Under the pieces are notes generated by a model, which saw only the letters and a program-made list of their open reading frames with translations, made no database searches and was not told the DNA's origin. A program made the translations under genes and the position numbers. Source: an uncultured Opitutaceae bacterium (GTDB lineage: Bacteria > Verrucomicrobiota > Verrucomicrobiia > Opitutales > Opitutaceae). Taken from it: DNA of 13,030 bases. This document shows, piece by piece, positions 11,124-12,505 of the stretch. The stretch lies in the NCBI GenBank assembly GCA_937128785.1, contig CAKZMS010000121.1, positions 1-13,030 of the forward strand. Reading direction: 5' to 3'. The number at the start of each line of letters is the position of its first letter. Position 1 is the stretch's first letter.

Positions 11124-12505
<1,382 letters not shown>

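Follow-up and report, generated by a model that had tools for sequence, protein, structure and literature searches.

An apparent RNase E/G-PgpA fusion gene in an Opitutaceae bin is almost certainly an artefact joining two genomes

Results and discussion

Gene content of the locus

The stretch of DNA analysed here, referred to as the window, comprises contig C121 in full (13,030 bases), from an Opitutaceae genome bin of 3,642,035 bases in 774 contigs, with an estimated completeness of 82.37 and contamination of 1.1. The features relevant to this study are as follows:

9789..11024, + strand: rodA (TIGR02210), the verrucomicrobial gene next upstream; collinearity with congeners extends as far as the join
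11124..12245, + strand: 5' part of rng, codons 1-374 (TIGR00757), cut short ahead of the codons for the two catalytic Asp
12224..12245, + strand: join zone of 22 bases, the only bases assignable to both parents; the GEIVIDE codons plus one base
12246..12509, + strand: Donghicola-like 3' part of pgpA, with 93/93 residues equal from EIVIDE onward
12506..12985, + strand: cinA, nicotinamide-nucleotide amidase (PncC_domain, E 5.4e-43), gene order as in Donghicola

A single plus-strand frame (11124-12509) runs through the rng and pgpA parts for 461 codons without a stop. A preliminary description of this DNA had divided it into about 374 RNase and 87 PgpA codons, and these counts were right. The RNase side of the frame is recognised by the Rne/Rng family model TIGR00757 at residues 79-374 (E 1.7e-82, profile positions 2-285 of 415), and the PgpA side by the phosphatidylglycerophosphatase A model NF008288 at residues 356-450 (E 2e-13, positions 70-155 of 165). 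With Pfam, RNase_E_G is found at residues 201-374 (positions 1-173 of 270) and PgpA at residues 367-450 (positions 68-139 of 141). The frame passes both Pfam gathering scores; for PgpA this score is 28, and on that alone the frame passes, with 84 bits. With each match broken off mid-profile, the scores stay below both curated NCBIfam cut-offs: the frame has 277.6 bits against the 325.95 required of a whole RNase E/G (TIGR00757), and 50.6 against the 226 required of a full-length PgpA domain (NF008288). GC skew shifts from -0.158 (11751-12250) to +0.100 (12251-12750).

Two parents and an abrupt switch between them

Upstream of the join the window is verrucomicrobial. Positions 9787-12244 form a single alignment with the congener genome G007 at 85.2% identity, with equivalents in G003 and G005, and the rodA-rng order is that of the Opitutaceae congeners. 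The blocks of the window that match G007 lie in the same order in both (456-4849, 6331-7209, 9143-9608 and 9787-12244), and the stretches between these four have no DNA match in G007. At the protein level the rng part is 95% identical to its G007 counterpart, the match stopping at residue 376. An intact Opitutaceae RNase E/G of 581 residues, P0002, equals the window's residues 1-374 at 373 of the 374 positions. Elsewhere in the window, inspection by eye found a long exosortase-type-like frame on the minus strand (2070-3965), near glycosyltransferase-like and transport-like frames, and two adjoining minus-strand frames resembling tandem family-2 glycosyltransferase paralogues (6329-8118).

Downstream, positions 12224-13030 align without a gap over 807 bases to Donghicola tyrosinivorans (Roseobacteraceae) at 94.2% identity, where cinA likewise comes after pgpA and overlaps it by the same ATGA. 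Of the bases in 12224-12509, 274/286 equal those of Donghicola pgpA. The encoded Donghicola PgpA (165 residues, L024 4764-5261) is identical over its last 93 residues and differs in having the first 72, including PGTFGS, that are missing from the window. The window's cinA equals that of Donghicola at 157/159 residues and 447/480 bases. Over 12249-12505 there are 11 third-position differences and one in a first position, with zero amino-acid changes, a silent pattern that would, as expected, fit a working pgpA. At 12983-12985, where Donghicola cinA has its stop, the window reads TCA, and its cinA frame is open to the contig end. We compared 80 of at least 559 confirmed pgpA loci: a near full-length pgpA match was present in 79 of them (L047 is cut by its own contig end), cinA lay directly downstream in 78, and none of the 80 had rng similarity in the compared stretch.

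The preliminary description had proposed a chimera of a verrucomicrobial and an alphaproteobacterial genome and had suggested searching with the two pieces separately. Their nearest relatives indeed differ, being Opitutaceae (Verrucomicrobiota) for the first and Donghicola for the second, and the abrupt switch between these two parents supports the proposal. In consecutive 40-base bins (12181-12220, 12221-12260 and 12261-12300), identity to G007 is 0.85, 0.62 and 0.25, and identity to Donghicola is 0.35, 0.88 and 1.00. Such a switch far exceeds what chance would give. From 12224 on, at least 26 bases of the window are those of Donghicola, and the verrucomicrobial pattern persists as far as 12244 or 12245. 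The earlier placement of the join at 12225-12248 is therefore right to within a few bases, except that 12246-12248 (GTG, Val375) already belong to the alphaproteobacterial side; P0002 has Thr there. In both genes the shared word codes for GEIVIDE or a part of it, in agreement with the suggestion that a short identical word at an IVID(E)-like strand of both families could link them, and the frame is open across the join because rng and pgpA read this word in the same frame.

The length of the word shared by the true parents is less sharply defined. Within 12211-12245 the window has a 22-base word in common with the Donghicola pgpA site, and 18 of these bases are also in congener G005. G007 and Donghicola have an identical word of 14 bases (12231-12244), G005 and Donghicola one of 18. 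From these comparisons the true parents would have had 14 to 22 bases in common, the length being set by the verrucomicrobial parent's bases at 12224-12230, and the word would have been 21-22 bases if the parent strain had GGT and GAA at codons 368 and 369. In the relatives codon 368 is GGC, GGT or, once, GGA, and codon 369 is GAA or GAG and once CAG (18/19 loci). The exact 20-base word was found in 0/19 of the relatives' rng sites; the nearest, L006 and L019, share 18 zone bases with Donghicola. Pairing these 19 rng sites with 79 of the 80 pgpA loci, tied to the pgpA alignment, gave 1,501 rng-pgpA pairs from other genomes, with at least 18 bases in common in 14 pairs, at least 20 in two and 21 in one. 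A looser motif count not tied to pgpA, in which the motif matched 52/80 alphaproteobacterial loci, gave 988 pairs with a longest word of 20 bases. The word GGTGAAATCGTCATCGACGA has a single exact occurrence in the assembly, at the join, and occurs once with two mismatches on contig C151.

The missing part of rng and the resident pgpA

A profile search of the assembly located the complementary RNase E/G piece on another contig (C730:28-357, profile positions 306-415). C730:1-589 is 85% identical to G007, and the contig starts 36 bases past the join zone (37 bases after the match of 12244 in the G007 alignment). The C730 part equals P0002 at 193/195 residues, and the 12 residues of P0002 that lie between the window part and the C730 part, TEALISVDVNTG, are on neither contig. 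Six further proteins (P0003, P0004, P0005, P0009, P0012 and P0019) also cover both pieces, at 90-97% for the window and 86-95% for C730. Since intact proteins span the two parts, both halves are of one gene from one close lineage.

The bin has a complete pgpA of its own on C295, with the gene order of the congeners, and a cinA-like gene on C28 with a weaker match (39%). The expectation that intact continuations of both genes would be found in the same assembly thus held for rng and for the resident pgpA; no 5' half of the alphaproteobacterial pgpA turned up in the bin. Mis-binned Donghicola contigs were considered and rejected: across 10,258 bases around Donghicola pgpA, with 40 of 60 first-look candidates scored, the bin matches only through the window's own tail. 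A second chimera on C295, where an actinobacterial-looking rsmG stands beside the resident pgpA, was likewise rejected, as G007 has the same rsmG beside pgpA. C295 (3,754 bases) aligns with G007 over 2-2466 and 2511-3085, with G005 over 2-3085 and with G003 over 741-3076; its last ~670 bases have no DNA match in the three regions of these genomes.

Examined as a candidate chimeric contig, C121 has a different close relative on each side, an abrupt switch and a short shared word at the join, and the true continuation of the broken rng lies elsewhere in the assembly, on C730. Intact forms of both genes also exist elsewhere.

Catalytic residues and expected activity

According to PMC2631609, D303 and D346 of E. 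coli RNase E hold the catalytic magnesium. In an alignment to solved RNase E, counted by hand, their equivalents are D382 and D426 of P0002, both Asp. D382 falls within the 12 residues on neither contig, and D426 is on C730. The fused frame ends before the equivalents of D303, D346 and C404/C407 of the E. coli enzyme and so carries neither catalytic Asp. It also has no [IV]D[IV]N motif and, having no CPxC, no CPxCxGxG zinc motif; CPxC is at 484 in P0002 and on C730 in the form CPYCRGRG. These losses of the Asp motif and CxxC had been anticipated from the sequence, as had that of the PgpA N-terminal half: the first 67 of 141 PgpA profile positions, or 72 of 165 residues, are absent. Pfam PgpA coverage is 68-139 (of 141) for the fused frame, 1-139 for the Donghicola protein and 2-140 for the resident protein on C295. 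By sequence, no PgpA was found among solved structures, the search giving one weak, unrelated match. As the preliminary description had also argued, a natural fusion would be expected, judging from the residues lost, to have neither RNase nor phosphatase activity.

Search for a second fusion

We looked for the fusion in other genomes and proteins, the finding of which, according to the preliminary description, would speak against a chimera, and found none in the searches made, among the matches listed. Matches to the fused frame were present in 139/149 other family genomes and absent from 10; among the matches listed, none crossed the join in the 149 genomes, and all those on the RNase side ended at or before residue 377. 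In a 38-genome search, 36/38 genomes (own included) matched. The RNase match reached the join, ending at residue 375-377, in 33/37 other genomes; two had N-terminal pieces only and two had none. A protein search with 8,000 candidates scored gave no second protein with both domains among the best 120 of 7,973. A search with residues 372-461, limited to candidates between 0.55 and 1.75 times the length of the 461-residue frame, yielded 32 proteins with the PgpA end (253-806 residues long), and the RNase E/G domain was found in the window's own only. With no second example in these searches and the missing part of rng in the same assembly, a natural fusion was rejected.

Other domain combinations came to light in the course of this work. 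PF01019 (gamma-glutamyltranspeptidase) occurs with the PgpA domain PF04608 in P0140, P0141, P0143-P0146 and P0148, and 6/7 of these clusters have 3-14 member sequences; the combination may be a real recurrent fusion. PF02542, PF01128 or PF02464 (IspF, IspD and CinA), families whose genes adjoin pgpA in Donghicola, occur with PgpA in P0121-P0123, P0125, P0126, P0128, P0130, P0132, P0133 and P0137. These proteins could be either neighbour fusions or frame errors. Two genomes, G052 (C82, C280) and G100 (C161, C67), have two long RNase E/G matches each, and G052, with a contamination of 7, is a possible mixed bin.

How the join arose

The contig is almost certainly a two-genome chimera, in which a verrucomicrobial RNase E/G gene and marine alphaproteobacterial DNA are joined at short identical bases, and the apparent RNase-phosphatase fusion gene is almost certainly an artefact and not any organism's gene. 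The best explanation, to which we give a probability of roughly 0.83, is an assembler misjoin from Opitutaceae rng to Roseobacteraceae pgpA at the shared word. The Opitutaceae segment ending in rodA-rng would have been joined inside rng to a Donghicola-like segment starting in pgpA-cinA, at 14-22 identical bases that cover the GEIVIDE codons of the two genes in part or in full. A short-read assembler would have walked between the genomes at this word, leaving the true continuation of rng as the start of the separate contig C730, 36 bases on. We infer the assembler as the source of the error, and a de Bruijn mechanism, as had been suggested, is plausible. Misassembled chimeric contigs are a known error, relatively rare next to mis-binning according to the GUNC paper (PMC8201837).

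How well a simple k-mer walk would account for the join depends on the word. The smallest k-mer of common metagenome assemblers is generally 21, and such a walk becomes less likely if the true shared word was shorter than about 21 bases. Real genomes do have words of 20 or 21 bases common to rng and pgpA at this point, in 2/1,501 pairs, which supports a misjoin. The start of C730 counts against it, as this contig begins 36 bases past the zone and not with the shared word. In addition, the exact 20-base word is in 0/19 relatives, and some weight was therefore moved from an assembler misjoin to a man-made physical chimera, in which molecules were joined in library preparation or amplification by template switching at the identical word. 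Template switching could use 14-22 identical bases and needs no 21-base minimum, and all the two-parent sequence evidence fits it equally. We nevertheless regard this origin as unlikely, since on general reasoning a rare molecule should lose to the true ones unless coverage is very low, and the true 3' part of rng was assembled separately.

Real horizontal transfer or recombination, bringing alphaproteobacterial pgpA-cinA into the strain's rng as a true fused gene, is very unlikely. It has in its favour an open frame through the join, and the contig alone does not forbid it. Against it stand the rng 3' part on another contig of the assembly, which almost equals the intact protein P0002 that the window part also matches, and the fusion's absence from every congener and family genome searched and from all other proteins, among the matches listed. 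The RNase would also lose its catalytic Asp residues and zinc motif, and the differences from Donghicola over 12249-12505 are silent, as for a working pgpA. Still less probable is a variant in which the sampled strain has a locus recombined at the 14-22 base word, with an intact rng copy present as well, whether in those cells or in others, and makes a stable RNase-PgpA fusion protein. A fusion protein of new function, with the RNase N-terminal part carried on the PgpA membrane segment, is hardly credible: it has the open frame in its favour, every point against a real transfer applies to it as well, and no second example exists among the listed family-genome matches or among the PgpA-end proteins, where 1/32, its own, has both parts.

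Consequences for annotation

C121 resembles the chimeric metagenome contigs described in the GUNC paper (PMC8201837) in that fragments from two sources stand in one contig of a bin; in C121 the join lies inside one open frame. Because the frame is kept, gene-calling software would annotate a single fused protein. If the contig were accepted as it stands, annotation would gain a spurious fusion (PF10150 + PF04608) and a spurious gene transfer between phyla, and the bin's contamination estimate of 1.1 gives no hint of the chimera. Two families that are unrelated but both have a conserved EIVIDE strand can have words of up to 21 bases in common (1/1,501 pairs), and a misjoin at such a word then preserves the reading frame and passes for a gene.
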